33,729 bases of DNA, taken from NCBI GenBank assembly GCA_958430865.1, contig CAUDNR010004278.1, forward strand, positions 121,564 through 155,292, written 5' to 3'. The notes beneath the pieces were generated by a model that saw only the letters and a program-made list of their open reading frames with translations, did not search any database and had not been told where the DNA came from. Position numbers and translations under genes: made by a program. Each line of letters opens with the position of its first letter. Within the stretch, counting starts at the first letter, position 1. Origin of the DNA: Entrophospora sp. SA101. Its lineage: Eukaryota > Glomeromycota > Glomeromycetes > Entrophosporales > Entrophosporaceae. Below are positions 1,464 through 30,575 of this stretch, in pieces.

Positions 1464-4219
1464 TAAACGCCAATTAACTAAATATTAATATTAAATTGCT
1501 TGTTAAAACTTTTTTTTTTTTTTTAAAAAAAATTACAAATGTAGAAAAGATTGATTTGTTCCACATAATAAATTTTACCGCCTTATCAAATTTTGCAACC
1601 CTTCACTTCAGTATTAACTTTTTCCAATATTTTATATTCTTCTAATGCTGCTTTAGAGACCTTTAATTGAGCATGGTCAAAACCGAGAATATGCAAGTTT
1701 TTTAATGACTAATTGTAACGAATATTCGTTATTCAGCAAATATGTTCACATCAACATTCAATAACGCGGTTGGGCTTGTTTTTATATATGGCGCTTCACT
1801 AATTACACTGTCAATGGAGGGGATGGTCTTAATGAAGCACGCAAATAAAAAAAATGGATGAAATATTTTTTTTTTAATTAGTTATTTTTGTTTTTTTTTT
1901 TTTTTTTTTAAACGAAAAAATATTATGAATTTGATCAATCAATTAACACTCCTTCATTTTATATTCATTTATTACTCGAATTTAGAAGGCATTTAATTCT
2001 ATTTTAAGAAATTTATTTTTATAAATTAATTAAAATGTTAAACCATAAGTTTATCTATCATTATATAAAACAAAGGGACGGAAGGGATGTAATTCATAGC
2101 CAGATTAAGCTTTTCTTTCATAGAACTTTCATCTTTTTAAAAAAAAATTTTGGCAACGCTTATCTTTAACTATATATATTAAGAATATTGGCGAAATACT
2201 TTGCAGGGCGAGGAATTATTTCGTTGCATTTGACGAAATGTGACGAAATTGACGTTGACCAATTATACAACCAAATTTTCATAACCAGTGATCAAAGGTA
2301 TGGCCAAATATTGAATTTTATATATAACAGTATAGTGGTGTCACCAAAAAAATGATTACCTTTTATCTTATCATCATGATAAAAAAAAAAATGAGAATAA
2401 TCACCATGGTAAATATCCAACATTACACTACATAATGAATTGTTATATAAAATACCATGTATAAAATCATTAAAACCCTAGGTTCTCAAAAAATGTACTT
2501 ATGGCATATTCGTCGATTTTGTTTGAACCTCAAAATTCAGTACGGCATGATCATAACGTTATGAATACCTTATAATCCATTAGTTTTGAGGTAGTGCCGT
2601 TGATTTGACGGGCTATTGAATAATAAAATAGTTTTTTTTTTTTTGTAGAGTAAATAAATTTTTTTAGGGTTAATCTGACCAGTTACGCATACACAATAAG
2701 ATATACATGTAAGCTCATTAAGTCGGATGCAACAATCAATTGCTTAAAATAAAAAAATGACCGACCTATCGAGTTTAAATGTGTGTAGGGTTTGAAAGAA
2801 GGCCAAAAAATAAATCGGCTGTATGGTAATTACGTACTACCAGCAATTTTCCCATCTCTATCCTTGTCTGAAGTTGATGCATGATGTTAATATATTGGCT
2901 GAATGTTCGCACTATATAAAACAATCAATATATGTATAGGAATCAATCAGCAAGTATCACAAATATCTGAATTGATTGGCTAAATTAATTTCGTCGATTT
3001 CTTCAAAAGATCCTTGGCGATAAATATAAATTTCGTCATGTACAATTTCGTCAACCATTCTTAATTAATTAATTTATACACAACACAATCATTTGAAATT
3101 TCCTTTTTTTCGAAAAATTCCTTTTTTTAAACAAATTCTACAACCTTTTTAAAGTTAATACGTCACATTAAATTAAATTCATCATATTCTTTCGTTAATT
3201 AATGAAAACTTTTAAACTAGACAAAAAATCCCGTGATTTTGATGAAAACTTTGAGCTTAGTAAAAAACTTCAAAATTCCGTTGAATCATGAATTAAGCAA
3301 GTCCATTTAAAATATCTTGAATATATATACACGGCGAGACTGCGTTAAAAAGCATATTAATATACTAACACTTAAATCATTTAAAAGTTGACAATAATAA
3401 TGCCCGTTCCAATCCTTCTTTAGCACGTAATAATAAAAGTAAGTTACATCATTTTCCAAACTCGAGTATTTAAAGTTACAGATAGTGATGTTAGCCGGCT
3501 TAGCCGGCTAAAAAAATTTTTCTTGACGTTCATTTTACGTCTGGGATTTTAGTGCAGAATTCAATGGCATAGACATTTAGTTGAGATGGATCCACTTAGA
3601 ATGACAAAAAAAACATACATTTACTCAAAATACAAAATACAAAATGTATATCGTAGCAGGATAAAAGTCATATTTTAATTCGAATTATTATTATTCGTTC
3701 TATTCGAATTATTCGTTTTTTTATTCGTTTATTCGAATAAAACTTTCAATATAATTCGAATACTCAAATTCATAATGAAAAAAAACAAATAATTTGAACC
3801 ATTAAATGCGAGATATTATAATAACAATAGTAAATAATAATAATAATAATAATAACGTTAGTAGTAGTAATAATAATACCGGCAAGCTTAGTATTAGTAC
3901 CAACGATTTATTTGATCAAGACATTTGCTAAGCGATTTATTTGGCTAAGCCATTCATTCGTCACATTATTACACTTAATCGCGTGGGGTGCGAATAACAA
4001 TTCCCTAAATATTAATATAAAGTATTAAATGACGTTTATTATTATAAGAAATTAAATAAGAAATATAAGGGATAAATAAATAAAGATATTAATATAAATA
4101 GAAATAAAAAGATTCGATTCGGAATTAGGGTATTTCGACCAACAAATCAGCTTTAAATCCTAATTCCAATAACAACTGCATGCAATTTGAAAGCAAAAAT
4201 TCGCTTTCATTTTTTTTTT
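1464..4219. other. Upstream region of the plus micro-exon gene; repeats, no gene seen
   Basis: No ORF in this 2.7 kb looks coding. It contains poly-T runs near 1510 and 1890. A hairpin-type repeat built on TTTCGTC/GACGAAA spans about 2215-3060. A GC palindromic pair TAGCCGGCTTAGCCGGCTA lies at 3492-3510, TTCGAA-rich sequence at 3675-3770, and a (TAA)n tract at about 3835-3880. All are duplicated in the right arm. Confidence 0.6.
2215..3060. repeat. MITE-like element with GACGAAA/TTTCGTC inverted ends
   Basis: Left end carries CATTTGACGAAATGTGACGA and GACGTTGACCAATTA. Right end carries CGTCGATTTC, AATTTCGTCATGTACAATT and TTTCGTCAACCATTC, so the ends are inverted repeats of the same GACGAAA-type words. 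The interior has no ORF. The same words recur in the hairpin at 23143-23432. This fits a non-autonomous element family, though no clean target duplication was found. Confidence 0.45.
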
Positions 4220-4296: not shown

Positions 4297-5821
4297 ATGA
4301 AATTCAATATTTCTCTTCTCTTTTTGATTATCTTTGCTGTCATGGCTTTAGCAAGCCCAACTCATAACAATAATTTGGTGAAGAGATGTACTTCATTTAT
4401 TATTATATTTACTATTACAATAATATCATTATATTTGTATAATTGTTTTTGAAAAATTACTAACTATTGGGTTTCATTTGATTTTAAATAATAAATAGCC
4501 GTGTAAGTATTTTTGTACTATTTATTATAGTCAATATCATTATTTTTGAATAAATATTAATTATTGATTTTCATTTTATTTTAAATAATAAATAGTGTAA
4601 GTATTCTCATCATTTCACCATTAATATCATTGTTTTTGAAAACATATTAACTGTTGGCTTTCATTTTATTTTAAATAATAAATATAGAACGTAAGTATTC
4701 TCATCATTTCACTATTGTTACAGTCAATATCATTGTTTTTCTGAAAATATTAACTATTGGTTTTTGTTTTATCTTAAATAATAAATATAGTGTGTAAGTA
4801 TTCTCATCATTATTATTACTACAGTTGATATCATTGTTTTTCTGAAAATATTAACTGTTGATTTTCATTTTATCTTAAATAATAAATATAGGATGTAAGT
4901 ATTCACATCATTTCACTATTAATATCATTTTTTTTTTTGAAAAAATATTAACTGTTGATTTTTGTTTTATTTTAAATAATAAATATAGACTGTAAGTATT
5001 TTCATCATTTCACTATTATTACAGTCAATATCATTGTTTATTAACTGTTGATTTTTGTTTTATCTTAAATAATAAATAGCTGGTAAATATTCTCATCATT
5101 TCACTATTATTACAGTCAATATCATTGTTTATTAACTGTTGATTTTCATTTTATTTTAAATAATAAATAGTGTAATGGTAGTGTGAGTATTTTCATCATT
5201 ATTATTACAGCCAATATCATTGTTTTTTGAAAATATTAACTGTTGATTTTTGTTTTATCTTAATATTAACTGTTGATTTTTGCTTTAGCTTAAATAATAA
5301 ATATAGAGTGCAAGTATTCTCATCATTATTATTACATCCAATATTATTCTTGAAAAATATTAACTGTTGATTTTCATTTATTTTAAATATAAATAAAAGG
5401 TAAGTATTTTTATTATTTACTACCATTACCATTGTTATTGTAAACATATTAACTGTTGATTGATTTTCATTTTATTTTAAATAATAAATAGGCAAGTATT
5501 TTTATTGTTTTACTATTATTACAGCCAACTTTATTCTTGAAAAATATTAACTGTTTGATTTCAATTTATTTTAAATAATAAATAGGCAAGTATTCTCATC
5601 ACTTAACATTATTACAGTCAATTGTTTTGTAATCATATTAACTGTTGATTTTATTTTAAATAGAAAAATAGAGTAAATAGGCTGTAGGCTCTTTGATAAC
5701 TTCATTTATCTCTTTAACTTTTTTTACTTTCATCTTATATTTATCTTTATTTTTATTGTTGGTTATAATTTTTATGTTGCTTAAGATTCATGCAAATTAT
5801 AATGTTTATATTATAACATAG
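4297..5821 (+). CDS. Secreted peptide precursor built from micro-exons, short paralog
   Basis: Exon 1 (4297-4387) encodes a 30-residue leader: basic-light start, hydrophobic core LLFLIIFAVMALA, a signal-peptidase-like ALAS, then NNNLVKR ending in a Kex2-type Lys-Arg, plus one extra base. Micro-exons follow: CCGT 4499-4502, T 4596, AAC 4688-4690, TGT 4791-4793, GAT 4892-4894, ACT 4989-4991, CTG 5080-5082, a 12-nt exon 5171-5182 (Cys-Asn-Gly-Ser), and AGT 5307-5309. Zero-length AG|GT or AG|GC positions come at 5399/5400, 5491/5492 and 5585/5586, and a last exon starts at 5681. With all exons included, the residues after Lys-Arg are S V N C D T L, CNGS, S, then a hydrophobic tail open to TAG 5819-5821. 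If the 1-nt exon is skipped, the frame ends at TAG 5685-5687. Introns are 88-124 nt. The tail may be 3' UTR. Family not recognised; no transcript evidence. Confidence 0.72.
4388..5680 (+). repeat. Tandem array of ~90-100-bp intron units (13 introns)
   Basis: Each unit runs GTAAGTATTCTCATCATT, then TTACAGTCAATATCATTG, then a branch-point-like ATTAACTGTTGATTTTC, then a TTTTATTTTAAATAATAA stretch ending in TAG. The next few bases are the micro-exon, and GTAAGT restarts the unit. Most donors are GTAAGT, with GTAAAT at 5083, GTGAGT at 5183 and GCAAGT at 5310, 5492 and 5586. The intron ending at 5306 contains a partly duplicated branch-point segment. As DNA this is a minisatellite-like repeat in which only the short exon slots vary. 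Confidence 0.9.
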
Positions 5822-20799: not shown

Positions 20800-21105
20800 T
20801 TTTGTTAGAAATCAGAAACATCGTAACTGGTCATTCATTTCCGCTGATATTTGATAACCGACCAATGAATTTGTTAGAAATCAGAAACATCATGACCAGT
20901 CATTCATTTCCGTTGATATTTGTTAACCGACCAATGAATTTGTTAGAAATCAGAAACATCATAACCGGTCATTCATTTCCGCTGATGTTTGATAACTGAC
21001 CAATGAATTTGTTGGAAATCAGAAACATGCATGACCAGTCATTCATTTCCGCTGATATTTGATAACTGACCAATGAATTTGTTAGGGAACAGAAACATCA
21101 TGACT
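20800..21105. repeat. 69-bp minisatellite, about 4.5 copies
   Basis: The unit runs from AATTTGTTAGAAATCAGAAA through CATTCATTTCCGCTGATATT to GACCAATG, with starts near 20800, 20869, 20938, 21007 and 21076. Since 69 is divisible by three, the plus frame 20796-20999 repeats a 23-residue block containing LLEIRNI..GHSFPLIFDNRP. The fourth copy gains a base (ACATGCATGACC), which breaks the frame. Whether it was ever translated is unclear. Confidence 0.85.
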
Positions 21106-23063: not shown

Positions 23064-23142
23064 CAAGTCAAAAACCAACCCTTTAAATACATTTTTGAGT
23101 AGTACAATTTAATTTGTTAGACTATTTCAAGGGTCTGATTCA

Positions 23143-23432
23143 TTTCGTCAACAATCATTTCGTCGACAGTCATTCCGTCGACACCCATTTCGTCGAAAGC
23201 TTGTTTCATCGAAAGTTCATTTCGTCACAAAAAAAACTTCATTAAACAAATTTCTCCTCGCACTTCCCACACACCCCGCTTTCCTCACCTAATTTCTTAA
23301 CTAACTTCACACTCTCCTCACATCTAACTCGTTTGGTCTCTGGCTCGAGGATGAAATAATTTTCGACGAAATGAACTTTCAATGAAACAAACTTTCGACG
23401 AAATGATTGTCGACGAAATAATTTTCGACGAA
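23143..23432. mobile_element. MITE-like hairpin of TTTCGTCGA words
   Basis: Left block 23143-23228 repeats CATTTCGTCGAC-type words; right block 23366-23432 carries their reverse complements (GACGAAATGATTGTCGACGA). The 140-bp centre is unique and GC-richer. The TTTCGTC words are shared with the ends of the element at 2215-3060 and its mirror in the right arm. Confidence 0.6.
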
Positions 23433-23998: not shown

Positions 23999-24485
23999 CT
24001 ATTTACTCTATTTTCTATTTAAAATAAAATGAAAATCAATCAACTGTTAATATTTTTTTCAAAAAAATTAACTGTAATAATGGTAAATGATGAGAATACT
24101 TGCCTATTTATTATTTAAAATAAAATGAAAATCAATCAACAGTTAATATGTTTACAAAAACAATGGTAATGGTAGTAAATAATAAAAATACTTACCTTTT
24201 ATTTATTATTTAAAATAAATGAAAATCAACAGTTAATATTTTTCAAGAATAATATTCCATGTAATAATAATGATGAGAATACTTACACTCTATATTTATT
24301 ATTTAAGCTAAAGCGAAAATCAACAGTTAATATTTTCAAAAAAACAATTATATTGACTGTAAAATGATGAAAATACTTACAGAGGAATTCTATATTTATT
24401 ATTTAAGATAAAACGAAAAATCAAAAGTTAAATATTTTCAAAAAACAATGATATTGGCTGTAATAATAATGATGAAAATACTCAC

Positions 24486-27400
24486 CTACACTATTTATTA
24501 TTTAAGATAAAACGAAAATCAACAGTTAATATTTTCAAAAAAACAATTATATTGACTGTAAAATGATGAAAATACTTACCGATGGAATTCTATATTTATT
24601 ATTTAAGATAAAACAAAAATCAACAGTTAATATTTTCAAAAAACAATGATATTGGCTGTAATAATAATGATGAAAATACTCACCCTACACTATTTATTAT
24701 TTAAGATAAATCGAAAATCAACAGTTAATATTTTCAAAAAAACAATGATATTGACTGTAACAATAGTGAAATGTTGAGAAAGAATATTTACAGTCTATAT
24801 TTATTATTTAAAATAAAATAAAAGCCAACAGTTAATATGTTTTCAAAAACAATGATATTGACTGTAATGATGAGAATACTTACCACCTGCCCATTATTTA
24901 AAATAAAATGAAAGCCGACAGTTAATATGTTTTCAAAAACAATGATATTGACTGTAGTAATAATAATGACGAAAATACTTACAGCCTATATTTATTATTT
25001 AAGATAAAACGAAAGCCAACAGTTAATATGTTTTCAAAAACAATGATATTGACTGTAATATAATGATGAAAATACTTACCATCTATTTATTATTTAAGAT
25101 AAAACGAAAATCAACAGTTAATAAATATGTTTTCAAAAACAATGATATCGACTGTAGTAATAATAATGATAGAATTAGTGATGGGCGGGTTTATAACAAC
25201 CTAGTTTATACCCTGTTATATACCTGTTATATACCATGTTATATACCATTACCACTTTTATAACACGTTTATACCATGGTTGTACAAAATAATAAAATTT
25301 TTTAAATGAGAAAATGAGGCCACAGCATTTTATTTGGAAACATTTCAAAAAGTCACAAGAAAGAAAAAATAACAAGCAGCATTATATAGCTTCTTGTAAT
25401 TATTGTCAACATGCTTTTGATGGACAACCTCTTCGCATGATTAAACATTTACTTTCTTGTAATAATGCACCAAATGAATTGAAAATATTGTTAAAAAATA
25501 AAACTAAAGATTTTGATAATGTTCATAGAAAAAATAAACAAAAAGTCATGGAAGGATTCATTGATAAATGTTCAATTAAAGAAAAAGAAGAACTAGACAA
25601 TTATTTATCTCTAGCAATTTTTGGTAGTGGTCTCCCCTTATCAATTGTAGAAAATCAGTATTTTATTAATTTTTGTAAAAAACTACGTCCTGCTTATGAA
25701 TTACCATCCAGAAAAACACTCACTATCAAATTGTTAAATGATAAATATAATGAAATTACTGAAAATAATAATAATCAAATTGAAAAATCGAAATATGTCT
25801 GTATAACAAGTGATGGCTGGACAAACAACCATAATGAATCAATTATTAATTTCATGGTTACTTTACCAAAACCACTATTTTGGAAGGCATTAGAAACCAA
25901 AGAATCATCACACACTGCTGAATATATCTCAGAAAAAATAGAAGAAGTAATTAGTGAAGTTGGCCAAGATAAAGTTGTTGCAGTTTTGACTGATAATGCA
26001 GCCAACATGAAAAAGGCTCATAAGATTCTTAATAATAAATTTAACAAAATTATTTTTATAGGTATTTGTTTTATAAATGTTTAAATTAACATGATTATTA
26101 GAATTACTAATTTTTAGTTAATTTCAGGTTACTTTGCACACGGAGTGAATCTTATTATTAAAAAAATTATAGATTTACCTTGGGCAAAAGAAATTATAGA
26201 TTCTGTCAAAGATATTGTTAAATTTTTTAAGAAACATCATATTGAAGGGTCATGTTTAAATAGAATCCAAATTGAAAAAATTGGTAAAAGAATACAATTG
26301 CAATTACCTGGTAATACACGTTGGGGCTCTCATTATTTCTGTTTAAATTCAATAATTGCAAGTAAAAAAGCTTTGCAAGTAACTATCATTTATATTACAT
26401 ATTTATGAAAGGCTATTTCATTCTAATGTTTTATTTAATAATTTGATTTAAATAAATTATATAGGTTGTTGTTTTTGAAAATGCTGTACAAAGAACAATC
26501 ACCTCAGAATTAATATCAAAATTAGTTGATACCAATTCATTTTGGCCAGCAACAGAACTTTTATGTTCTTTTTTAAAATTATTTGTTGATATGTTTAAAA
26601 TATTTGAAAGTGATAAACCAAATTTATCATCAGTATATAACGAGTATGTAAAGTGTAATTAATTTTATTATTTTATTTTATTATTTTTTGAAATATCATT
26701 ACTAAATATCAATTAAATAAATACAGATTTATTATTCTTGGGAATGGAATTTCAAAATCAACAATTCCTATCAAAGATGAGGTTTTGGATATATACAATC
26801 ATTATAATGAAAAATTATATCATCCAGCCATTGCTATTGCTTATTTTTTTGATCCTAGATATAAAGGCAAATATCTACCAGATAGAATTTCAAGTATCTC
26901 ATATATAGTTGAAGAGACAGTCAAACTTACTGATAAAACAAATATTGGAAAATTAACTAAAGAGATTATGGAATATCATGCCAAGTCTAGTCAGTTTAGT
27001 TCAAATTTTTTGTGGTTAAAAGAAGCAATTGAGGATCCAATCACTTGGTGGTCATCTCTAGAGAAAGATATTCCAATTTTAAGTCAGGTTGCAATAAAAT
27101 TAATGAAAATACCTGCTTCTTCTGCAGCATCAGAACGTAATTGGAGTGATTTTGGTTATATTCATAATATTAGAAGAAATAGACTCACAAATGAAAATGT
27201 ATTTAAACTCGTTTCAATATATTCCAACTTAAGATTATCTAATTCATATGAAAAAGGATTGAAAAATGATTCTGAATATCAAGCAGAGATCAATGACAAG
27301 AGTAAAAATGAAGATGGAGATGAAGAAATTGATGATTATTGGGATTTTGATTATAATGACTATGATTATAGTGAAAATTATGATGATGACAATGATTTTG

Positions 27401-30400
27401 ATGAATTTATTAATTTAGAAGATAGTGATAACATTCAAGAATTCTACAAAGATGTATAACATAAGTTTATTATACAATTAGCATTTCTTATTATAAATAA
27501 ATATTCAAACCAAAATTGTTATCTTATTGCATATTAATGGTATATACCAACGAATGGTATATACCATTTATACCCGGTATATACCATGGTATATACCACA
27601 ATCAATTTCTTGTGTAATTTTTTAGTAGGGGTATATACCATGGTATATACCGGGTATAAATATGGTATATACCACTCAAATCTTTTATAACATGTTATAT
27701 ACCATCCCTAGATAGAATACTTACGGCCTATATTTATTATTTAAGATAAAACAAAAATCAACAGTTAATATGTTTTCAAAAACAATGATATTGACTGTAA
27801 TAATAGTGAAATGATGAAGATACTTACATCCTATATTTATTATTTAAGATAAAACGAAAATCAACAGTTAATATGTTTCAAAAACAATGATATTAGTAGT
27901 GAAATGATAAAAACACCCACACACTATTTATTATTTAAGATAAAACGAAAATCAACAGTTAATATTAATATGTTTTCAAAAACAATAGTGAAATGATGAG
28001 AATACTTACATCCTATATTTATTATTTAAAATAAAATGAAAAATCAACAGTTAATATTTTCAGAAAACAATGATATTGACTGTAACAATAGTGAAATGAT
28101 GAGAATACTTACATACTATTTATTACATAAAATAAAACGAAAATAAACAGTTAATAAATATGTTTTAAAAACTATGATATTGACTGTAGTAATAATAATG
28201 ATGAGAATACTTACAGCCTATATTTATTATTTAAGATAAAACAAAAATCAACAGTTAATATGTTTTCAAAAACTATGATATTGACTGTAACAATAGTGAA
28301 AATGATGAAAATACTTACAGACTATTTATTACATAAAATAAAACGAAAAATCAACAGTTAATATTTTCAAAAAAACAATAATATTGACTATAATAATAGT
28401 GAATGATGAGAATACTTACAGGCTATTTATTACATAAAATAAAATGAAAATCAACAGTTAGTATGTTTTCAAAAACAATGACATTAGTAGTGAAATGATA
28501 AAAACACTCACACACTATTTATCATTTAAGATAAAACGAAAATCAACAGTTAATATGTTCTCAAAAAAACTATGATATTGACTGTAACGATAGTGAAATG
28601 ATGAGAATACTTACAGACTATTTATTACATAAAATAAAACGAAAAATCAACAGTTAATATTTTCAAAAAACTATAATATTGACTGTAACAATAGTGAATA
28701 CTTACGCTCTATATTTATTATTTAAGATAAAACGAAAATCAATAGTTAATATTTTCAGAAAAACAATGATATTGACTGTAATGATGAGAATACTTACAGA
28801 CTATTTATTACATAAAATAAAACGAAAAATCAACAGTTAATATTTTCAAAATACAATAATATTGACTGTAACAACAGTGAAATGATGAGAATACTTACGT
28901 TCTATATTTTATTGAAAATAAAACGAAAATCAATAGTTAATATTTTCAGAAAAACAATGATATTGACTGTAATATATAATGATGAAAATACTTACCAGCT
29001 ATTTATTATTTAAGATAAAACGAAAATCAACAGTTAATAAATATGTTTTCAAAAACAATGATATCGACTGTAGTAATAATAATGATGAGAATACTTACAG
29101 CCTATATTTATTATTTAAAATAAAACAAAAATCAACAGTTAATATGTTTTCAAAAACAATGATATTGACTGTAATAATAGTGAAATGATGAGAATACTTA
29201 CATGCTATTTATTACATAAAATAAAACAAAAATCAACAGTTAATAAACAATGATATCGACTGTAGTAATAATGATGATGAGAATACTTACCGCCTATATT
29301 TATTATTTAAAATAAAACGAAAATCAATAGTTAATATTTTCAGAAAAACAATGATATTGACTGTAATAATAGTGAAATGATGAAAATACTTACTTCCTAT
29401 ATTTATTATTTAAGATAAAACGAAAATCAACAGTTAATATGTTTTCAAAAACAATGATATTAATAGTGAAATGATGAGAATACTTACAATCTATTTATTA
29501 TTTAAGATAAAACGAAAATCAACAGTTAATATTTTCAGAAAAACAATGATATTGACTGTAATAATAGTGAAATGATGAGAATACTTACCAACTATTTATT
29601 ATTTAAGATAAAACGAAATCAACAGTTAATAAATATGTTTCAAAAACAATGATATCGACTGTAGTAATAATAATGACGAGAATACTTACATCCTATATTT
29701 ATTATTTAAGATAAATCGAAAATCAACAGTTAATATGTTTCAAAAACAATGATATTAGTAGTGAAATAATAAAAACACTCACACACTATTTATCATTTAA
29801 GATAAAACGAAAATCAACAGTTAATATTTTCAAAAAAACAATGATATTGACTGTAACAATAGTGAAATGATGAGAATACTTACTTCCTATATTTATTATT
29901 TAAAATAAAATGAAAATCAACAGTTAATATGTTTTCAAAAACAATTATATTAATAGTGAAATGATGAGAATACTTACAGCCTATATTTATTATTTAAGAT
30001 AAAATGAAAATCAACAGTTAATATTTTCAGAAAAACAATGATATCAACTGTAGTAATAATAATGATGAGAATACTTACACACTATATTTATTATTTAAGA
30101 TAAAACAAAAACCAATAGTTAATATTTTCAGAAAAACAATGATATTGACTGTAACAATAGTGAAATGATGAGAATACTTACGTTCTATATTTATTATTTA
30201 AAATAAAATGAAAGCCAACAGTTAATATGTTTTCAAAAACAATGATATTAATGGTGAAATGATGAGAATACTTACACTATTTATTATTTAAAATAAAATG
30301 AAAATCAATAATTAATATTTATTCAAAAATAATGATATTGACTATAATAAATAGTACAAAAATACTTACACGGCTATTTATTATTTAAAATCAAATGAAA

Positions 30401-30575
30401 CCCAATAGTTAGTAATTTTTCAAAAACAATTATACAAATATAATGATATTATTGTAATAGTAAATATAATAATAAATGAAGTACATCTCTTCACCAAATT
30501 ATTGTTATGAGTTGGGCTTGCTAAAGCCATGACAGCAAAGATAATCAAAAAGAGAAGAGAAATATTGAATTTCAT
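24486..30575 (-). CDS. Secreted peptide precursor from ~37 micro-exons, long paralog
   Basis: Exon 1 (30575-30485) is the same leader with terminal Lys-Arg. Then, by upper coordinate: CCGT 30373, T 30276, AAC 30184, TGT 30081, GCT 29980, GAA 29886, TGT 29785, GAT 29692, TTG 29591, ATT 29490, GAA 29396, GCG 29293, CAT 29204, GCT 29101, CTG 28998, AAC 28901, TCT 28800, AGC 28708, TCT 28617, TGT 28514, CCT 28422, TCT 28321, GCT 28217, TAT 28115, GAT 28012, TGT 27923, GAT 27830, GCC 27727, [hAT], ATG 25082, GCT 24985, GTG 24886, ACT 24794, TGTAGG 24689, a 10-mer 24589-24580, TGTAG 24490, a 9-mer 24389-24381, AGT 24289. The 30 consecutive triplets contain no stop and about 44% G+C in introns near 20%. 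CCGT plus T restores phase. With all exons used, a TAG forms at 24486-24488, ending a ~40-residue Cys-, Ser- and Ala-rich peptide; skipping the 10- and 5-nt exons together would extend it. Splicing not tested. Confidence 0.72.
25176..27710 (+). mobile_element. Complete hAT-family DNA transposon
   Basis: Flanked by a perfect 8-bp target duplication GATAGAAT (25168-25175 and 27711-27718), the size made by hAT transposases. Ends are imperfect inverted repeats: TAGTGATGG at the left and CCATCCCTA at the right. Subterminal GGTATATACC-type palindromes are dense: at least seven at 27537-27675, with diverged ATATACC copies at 25217-25250. It sits 14 nt inside intron 29 of the long micro-exon gene and leaves the donor intact. 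Without it that intron would be about 99 nt, like its neighbours. Transposase is opposite in sense to the host gene. Confidence 0.95.
25314..27459 (+). CDS. hAT transposase with BED zinc finger
   Basis: Four exons, 25314-26061, 26128-26378, 26465-26643 and 26727-27459, give 1911 nt and a 636-aa protein with no frame break. Donors are GTATTT, GTAACT, GTATGT; acceptors TTTCAG, TATATAG, TACAG. The N-terminal BED finger shows IASCNYCQHAFDGQPLRMIK and HLLSCN (C-x2-C, H-x4-C). The RNase-H-like core has CITSDGWTNNHNE with the first catalytic Asp and VVAVLTDNAANMKKAHK with the second. Next is IGYFAHGVNLIIKKI across intron 1, then LPGNTRWGSHYFCLNS. The C-terminal dimerisation region has WWSSLEKDIPILSQVAIKLM and IPASSAASERNWSDFGYIHN. 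A long Asp/Tyr-rich acidic tail closes it. All hallmarks are present, so it may be active or only recently silenced. Confidence 0.92.

Follow-up and report, generated by a model that had tools for sequence, protein, structure and literature searches.

Predicted rows of one-codon exons in a family of putative secreted-peptide genes from Entrophospora sp. SA101

Can a gene spell a peptide by exons of a single codon each? The question is raised by a stretch of 33,729 nucleotides, called here the window (contig CAUDNR010004278.1 of assembly GCA_958430865.1, positions 121,564 to 155,292), from the glomeromycete Entrophospora sp. SA101. The window hosts two genes, gene 1 and gene 2, in which a short leader exon is trailed by a row of intron-like units, and the slots left between the introns are mostly three nucleotides (nt) long. 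An earlier note on this DNA had read gene 2 as a secreted-peptide gene written in some 30 consecutive one-codon exons. Analysis of the window and of related loci throughout the genome supports the notion of a real gene architecture, in which leader and slots would very probably be spliced into a small secreted peptide, one codon being contributed by each slot.

One-codon slots in the window and in the genome

In window coordinates, the array of gene 2, on the minus strand, starts at 30575 and extends to about 24000 (Table 1). Its leader (91 nt), whose signal peptide has been assessed by eye, is identical to the leader of gene 1 at 4297-4387. The slots are bounded by acceptors that are mostly AAATAATAAATAG or AATAATAAATATAG, and by donors that are mostly GTAAGTATT; introns of the window arrays, the transposon-bearing one aside, mostly measure 86-102 nt, with a single case of 124 nt. 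The codons of gene 2 are, in order, AAC TGT GCT GAA TGT GAT TTG ATT GAA GCG CAT GCT CTG AAC, and then TCT AGC TCT TGT CCT TCT GCT TAT GAT TGT GAT GCC, with four more past a hAT transposon; the codon runs on either side of the transposon have been read separately. The 31 three-nt slots of the gene (these 30 and AGT at 24287) have a G+C content of 44% and contain no AAA, TTT or stop codon, just as the earlier note had described. The 30 slots in a row that it had reported are present as one-codon slots, but in runs of 26 and 4, split by the transposon, which had gone unmentioned. Similarly, the length of exactly 3 nt attributed to the slots is correct for the two runs, but slots of 4 nt and 1 nt come first, and a tail of 6, 10, 5, 9 and 3 nt follows, and then zero-length slots.

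The same arrangement recurs in the genome, which comprises 101 Mb in 2123 contigs. The leader DNA used as query hit 40 scored places (63 candidates), and P0002, a protein record carrying the same kind of leader, hit 57 places at E <= 10, 43 at E < 0.001. Thirty-eight loci have been read: the two window genes (L009 and L010), two distant leaders (L057 and L058), and 34 further leaders, 17 of which were read over at most some 1.6 kb from the leader (in L024 just 0.4 kb) and 17 over longer distances. Nine loci (L029-L031 and L033-L038) were dropped as the same place or copies; L017 and L032, in which the script found no leader, and L040, which ends behind its leader, were left out. Several of the 38 loci are identical pairs or triples. 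In all 38, intron-like units, mostly of about 100 bp and nearly all with one three-letter slot, trail the leader, and 3 to 40 units have been called per locus. Many members run on to zero-length slots and a terminal region. Slot places occur also on contigs lacking a leader match, as C139, C167 and C487 among the first 100 places listed, and their units may belong either to subfamilies with other leaders, or to headless arrays. No match was found in a collection of viral contigs scanned for both slot patterns; in a collection of genome contigs scanned for one slot pattern a single match was found, in Winogradskyella, and is taken as chance.

Slot length is tightly controlled. Upon removal of identical contexts, 441 distinct units are left, of which 364 carry three-nt slots, 30 four-nt, 20 zero-length (mostly in 3' tails) and 11 one-nt slots, the other 16 having different lengths. 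Slot length is a multiple of three, zero included, in 392 of the 441. Since 364 of 441 slots are of three nt, and the leader is signal-like by eye, the loci qualify as predicted secreted-protein genes with many symmetric micro-exons. Slots of 2, 3 and 4 nt in front of GTAAGTATT have been counted by exact genome-wide matching as well, independently of the slot callers. Considering the AAATAATAAATAG and AATAATAAATATAG acceptor types, respectively, there are 0 slots of 2 nt (0+0), 427 of 3 nt (219+208) and 44 of 4 nt (44+0; of 45 matches, 44 are ATAG plus 4 nt, and one is AAG plus 3 nt). These counts exclude a chance origin of the three-nt slots; a reversed control pattern gave 0 matches at each of the three lengths. 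The array introns (60-140 nt) are spread over all three length residue classes (100/133/171).

The signals of GT-AG introns are present, including the AG acceptor and an upstream TTAA/CTAA motif, both required by the slot callers. The donor GTAAGTAT is found in 303 of the 364 distinct three-nt units. Nine donor positions have an entropy of 0-0.5 bits, and variability across 43 columns peaks at slot positions 1 and 2 (1.9 bits); to be considered along with these figures, the slot caller itself demanded AG and GT/GC, and some units in gaps came from a looser second pass, which could favour plausible slots. Three introns of a neighbouring glycosyltransferase gene, identified both by eye and through comparison with P0003, have the donors GTGCAT, GTTTGC and GTAAAC, and the array donors are thus not simply the local norm, as far as a small control of three introns can tell. 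TGT (Cys) slots are tied to particular donors, as 32 of 45 TGT units (top 30 combinations) have GTGAGT or GTGGGT in place of GTAAGT.

Reading phase, stop codons and encoded peptides

Stop codons are missing in all 324 distinct phase-0 slots of three nt, while 13.5 are expected on the basis of positional base composition; the count takes three-nt slots alone, and longer slots, such as the one in the gene 2 tail that holds a TAG, are outside it. Because the units are related by duplication, the test was repeated along a minimum spanning tree that connects 321 units and is built on the flanking introns only, and 0 stops were found among 208 slot changes, vs 11.1 expected. The lack of stops, which the earlier note had regarded as a signal within gene 2, is accordingly a signal at the level of the family; for gene 2 alone, where about 1.3 are expected among 31 slots, it is not significant.

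The exons preceding the one-codon runs fit the same frame. Most leaders (91, 94 or 85 nt) end in phase 1, with the first nucleotide of a codon. In every phase-0 locus in which both have been called, exons 2 and 3 measure 4+1, 4+4, 4+7 or 1+1 nt (exon 2 of L014-L016 being taken from a separate slot reading). Each combination completes the split codon of the leader. In five members examined, all from the L047-L055 subgroup, the terminal exon opens either with TAA right after the acceptor (L047, L050, L052 and L054) or with AAA TAA (L055).

A subfamily made of L057 (C65) and L058 (C200), with leaders of 85 nt ending in phase 1, has three TGA among 40 distinct slots. Their use as evidence against coding has been rejected, since these loci fit a shifted phase. 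The first slot of L057 is of 4 nt, which places the three-nt slots in phase 2, and the split codon C|GG gives KKR; in L058, splicing at the first AG would give a first slot of 7 nt, and thereby phase 2 as well. In this phase TGA is split over two codons, no stop is encountered, and the peptides are rich in Asp, Pro and Cys, like those of the main family. Of the two other offsets, one meets stops (1 in L057, 3 in L058), and one is open, with a different composition. T occupies slot position 3 in 215/324 slots of the main family vs 4/40 of the phase-2 subfamily (Fisher 4e-12), and slot position 1 in 85/324 vs 25/40 (Fisher 1.2e-5). This shift of T from position 3 to position 1 between subfamilies is regarded as the strongest single coding test.

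Searching proteins with the predicted gene 1 product, whose mature peptide after KR begins SVNCDTLCNGSS, gave two matches, P0001 and P0002, both unnamed records. P0002 (56 aa, from a jgi contig of 1024 bases) has the leader joined to RLPTVWCWDEQWAQWYDCRDPYVSE (25 residues), with no trace of intron 1. None of the 57 genome places matching P0002 goes past residue 45 of 56; the longest matches extend past the leader at 56-61% identity, and where the DNA has been read, as in L047, that stretch is intron 1. P0002 fits what the spliced transcript of a related gene would give. Its own gene, sought via TGG slots, was not found, as the 8 places detected are all in loci already read. When 13 family proteins, either predicted or found, were used for a profile search, P0001 and P0002 were retrieved again, and nothing else among 230 candidates.

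The amino acids encoded by the slots are skewed in composition (Cys 47, Asp 32, Pro 30 and Glu 28 of 324). In several members the residues directly after KR are of the X-P type (IP, VP, DP, SP, GP), resembling the STE13 signatures reported for the KEX2-processed repeat proteins (KEPs) of Rhizophagus (PMC6339444). Taken together, the genome-wide constraint to 3 nt, the absence of stops, the lengths of exons 2 and 3, the split TGA and P0002 lend support to the claim of the earlier note that the peptide would be assembled codon by codon. In L042, slots located from about 1940 to 3820 from the leader ATG spell TKEELAALRAALREKFLAE, which looks like an amphipathic helix and lies behind a Cys-rich part; the second AALR in this stretch resembles a duplication of four units.

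Evolution of the units and competing explanations

CGG units number three in L041 and two at the corresponding place in L039, and L042 repeats GCT GCT CTT CGT; differences of this kind denote that entire units, and with them entire residues, have been gained or lost. The slot codon is the same in 33% of nearest neighbours by intron sequence, vs 6% in shuffles, and codon and intron therefore travel together. Along tree edges with near-identical flanks (<=6 edits), the slot differs in 177 of 265. Either introns are homogenised and held by the needs of splicing while codons diversify, or the amino acids are little constrained.

Several observations weigh against the proposed architecture. Splicing is predicted from genomic DNA. 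P0001 and P0002 are protein records: the former corresponds to the leader with intron 1 read through, and fits genomic DNA or an unspliced transcript, the latter may stem from an intronless gene or a retrocopy. The relatedness of the units by duplication makes the counts not fully independent. Amino acids are not visibly conserved, as the 208 changes include no synonymous excess (5 observed vs 6.8 expected). Exons of 4 and 1 nt have not been called in L022; exon 2 was not found in L027, and its slots, when joined, then fall out of frame and include a stop; the script detected no donor for the leaders of L020, L022, L024 and L028; in L058 the first slot is of 3 nt if the second AG is used, which leads to another phase, also open. 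In most members the position of the stop is tentative, and the terminal region of L057, read in phase 2, has no initial stop. In gene 2 the array is interrupted by the transposon, and the tail exon TGTAG (24486-24490) contains a TAG in phase 0, which may be the true stop of the gene. Finally, L044 and L056 have the usual exons behind leaders of 90 nt that are out of frame, and the leader of L046 holds a stop; the three are probably dead copies.

These points leave room for other explanations of the arrays. The units are tandem copies, and their slot amino acids lack signs of purifying selection, as would be the case for a non-coding array, a minisatellite of decayed intron copies sitting in one large intron; the mRNA would then consist of leader and terminal exon, which, it can be reasoned, could give a short reading frame. 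Such a scenario appears very improbable in view of stop avoidance, control of length at 3 nt, compensating lengths of exons 2 and 3, the phase-2 subfamily and P0002; moreover, a dead array is not expected to hold donors at 0-0.5 bits beside slots at 1.9 bits. The slots could alternatively be spliced and the peptide be incidental, if the array worked as a splicing clock, or as a regulatory series of introns (recursive splicing), in which any drift of the codons is tolerated short of a stop. We give little credit to this hypothesis. The 20 distinct zero-length slots, similar to recursive sites and mostly found in 3' tails, are in keeping with it, as is the lack of a synonymous excess, but the skewed composition of the array peptides (Cys, Asp, Pro, Glu), the X-P found right after KR in several members, and the amphipathic-looking EELAALRAALREKFLAE stretch in L042 are not.

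Introners scatter through unrelated genes, unlike the array copies described here, which are in tandem and read in one gene family. An introner-like process could nonetheless account for the origin, and the origin only, of the arrays: copies of an intron element would have invaded a continuous peptide gene between its codons, and splicing would still assemble the peptide. Introner-like elements, invasive spliceosomal introns that multiply, have been reported in fungi (PMC4457414), and the array introns are far more alike than the slots, given the many near-identical flanks that enclose different codons (177/265). Yet, nearest intron neighbours share slots well above shuffles (33% vs 6%), some units have been gained in tandem (CGG, in two or three copies, and a repeated GCTGCTCTTCGT), and transposition is hard to square with insertion exactly between every codon, all of which make such an origin unlikely.

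Window features, related systems and implications

Table 1. Features of the two predicted one-codon-exon genes and of the inserted transposon, in window coordinates
Feature	Position	Strand	Remarks
Gene 1, second and shorter copy	4297-5680	+	
Gene 1 leader exon	4297..4387	+	as in gene 2
Gene 1 exons CCGT, T, AAC, TGT, GAT, ACT, CTG, TGTAATGGTAGT, AGT	4499..5309	+	
Gene 1, three zero-length slots	5399..5586	+	donors start at 5400, 5492, 5586
Gene 1 terminal exon candidate AGTAAATAG	5672..5680	+	would add SK and stop; acceptor tentative
Gene 2 leader exon: ATG, signal-peptide-like stretch, short propeptide ending KR (Kex2-type site), plus 1 nt	30485..30575	-	91 nt, encodes MKFNISLLFLIIFAVMALASPTHNNNLVKR, ends in phase 1
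Gene 2 exon 2, CCGT	30370..30373	-	4 nt (1 mod 3)
Gene 2 exon 3, T	30276..30276	-	1 nt, sets reading to phase 0
Gene 2, 26 consecutive one-codon exons, AAC (30184) through GCC (27725)	27725..30184	-	introns between are 86-101 nt
hAT transposon in intron after GCC, just behind donor	25176..27710	+	2.5 kb; transposase pieces, ends resembling terminal inverted repeats, target duplication
Gene 2, four further one-codon exons past transposon: ATG GCT GTG ACT	24792..25082	-	
Gene 2 3' tail exons TGTAGG, AATTCCATCG, TGTAG, AATTCCTCT, AGT	24287..24689	-	6, 10, 5, 9, 3 nt
Gene 2, two zero-length slots (AAAAG|GTAAGT, ATAG|GCAAGT)	24103..24196	-	acceptor abuts donor, as in recursive splice sites
Gene 2 terminal exon candidate AGTAAATAG	23999..24007	-	several AG acceptors possible

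The insert in gene 2 belongs to the hAT transposons by its domains (hAT dimerisation PF05699, 6.3e-15; DUF659, 2.4e-22). It is flanked on both sides by an 8-bp target duplication, GATAGAAT (25168-25175 and 27711-27718), and its ends TAGTGATGGG and CCATCCCTA, assessed by eye, resemble terminal inverted repeats; the transposase is split by short introns. Arrays elsewhere in the genome may contain insertions as well. In L050, at 882-1114 from the leader ATG, an array intron is enlarged by inverted-repeat sequence, possibly a miniature inverted-repeat transposable element, and in L043 two parts of the array are separated by about 4 kb without slots, probably an insertion, located at roughly 0.7-4.6 kb from the leader ATG. 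Stretches of a 15-bp tandem repeat are found just downstream of gene 2, at 23140-23432, and a tandem repeat of 69 bp, a multiple of three, is present in 4.3 copies with 90% match at 20801-21101. A search of the window against Rfam gave no match. The UDP-glycosyltransferase encoded in the window is 99% identical, over 73% of the query, to a protein of Entrophospora sp. SA101, and the next named matches are from other arbuscular mycorrhizal fungi, from Racocetra to Rhizophagus.

Other gene families share traits with these loci. In the bicycle genes of aphids, exons are small yet exceed one codon in size, and the encoded proteins are longer. In SP7-like genes the conserved intron precedes the first repeat, and repeats reside in ordinary exons. 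More than 100 microexons have been described in the megacycle gene of the bicycle family (PMC9168663), the host being in this case an insect. SP7-like effectors are secreted by arbuscular mycorrhizal fungi, and a conserved intron occurs early in the gene (PMC11333574). Comparison was made by description, and one-codon exons are not seen in the passages of that paper describing SP7; assignment to SP7-like genes has been rejected, as the architecture differs. Micro-exon genes of schistosomes (35 in S. mansoni) are similar in encoding secreted proteins by tiny exons and in forming a family of dozens, as judged by description; their exons span 3-81 bp according to PMC10526429, and not 6 nt and up as stated in the earlier note. 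They differ in having exons of mixed size and introns of up to 5 kbp, in contrast to one-codon exons and tandem, near-copy introns of about 90-100 nt in the fungus. KEPs, including those of Rhizophagus irregularis, carry a signal peptide and KEX2 sites, and give rise to secreted peptides; in R. irregularis the KEX2 site is followed by STE13 signatures (PMC6339444). They repeat a peptide motif between several KEX2 sites, whereas genes with one-codon exons have a single KR ending the leader; gene 1, and gene 2 up to the transposon, have one KR, and no repeats make up their mature parts. The main text of PMC6339444 on KEPs contains neither the word intron nor the word exon. Assignment to KEPs has been rejected for lack of a repeated peptide, and that to plain minisatellites on the basis of the phase and stop tests. 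A 1-nt exon is spliced in APC11 of Arabidopsis, and exons of 3 nt are on record too (PMC4674806), but such smallest exons are isolated in ordinary genes, and do not form rows of dozens. No gene with rows of one-codon exons has been found described in the open full-text literature on this architecture, subscription papers being mostly outside it. We regard the architecture as categorically new, because exon, intron and codon make up one tandem cassette; the chemistry is that of ordinary splicing, and "extreme micro-exon gene" is an alternative label.

If leader and one-codon slots are spliced as proposed, introns would be recognised by intron definition, and removed one after another. The exons would offer the spliceosome next to no recognition signal. 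Base pairing of the donor GTAAGTAT with the 5' end of U1 snRNA, possible over 8 nt, would compensate. With every intron removed, the growing 5' exon would be joined to the donor next in line, and zero-length slots, like recursive splice sites, would leave no trace in the mRNA. Kex2 would then cut the product behind KR, and in some members an STE13-like enzyme would trim the X-P residues. The peptide so released would be hypervariable, with Cys, Pro, Asp or Trp often abundant. The whole unit would also be the unit of evolution, its gain or loss adding or removing single amino acids in frame. The arbuscular mycorrhizal fungus would likely secrete these products for signalling or as effectors. 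More tentatively, the arrays may act as a generator of diversity working by codon cassettes: unequal exchange between arrays would insert, delete or swap single residues in frame, and since the cassettes are symmetric, so that skipping any number of them preserves the frame, a gene with 26 or more of them could give rise to very many peptides.

Should splicing occur as predicted, these genes would represent the extreme of exon size, entire mature peptides being encoded at one codon per exon, and the spliceosome would handle dozens of 3-nt exons in succession, with recognition signals that are nearly all intronic. Peptides would evolve directly, residue by residue, via gain and loss of units, and, if the cassettes do generate diversity, this would be the first gene family with a mature product edited at the DNA level per amino acid. 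Such genes would evade ordinary gene prediction, since searches with the family gave two unnamed records, while the UDP-glycosyltransferase of the same window matches a named one. Part of the secretome of this plant symbiont may thus be unseen.

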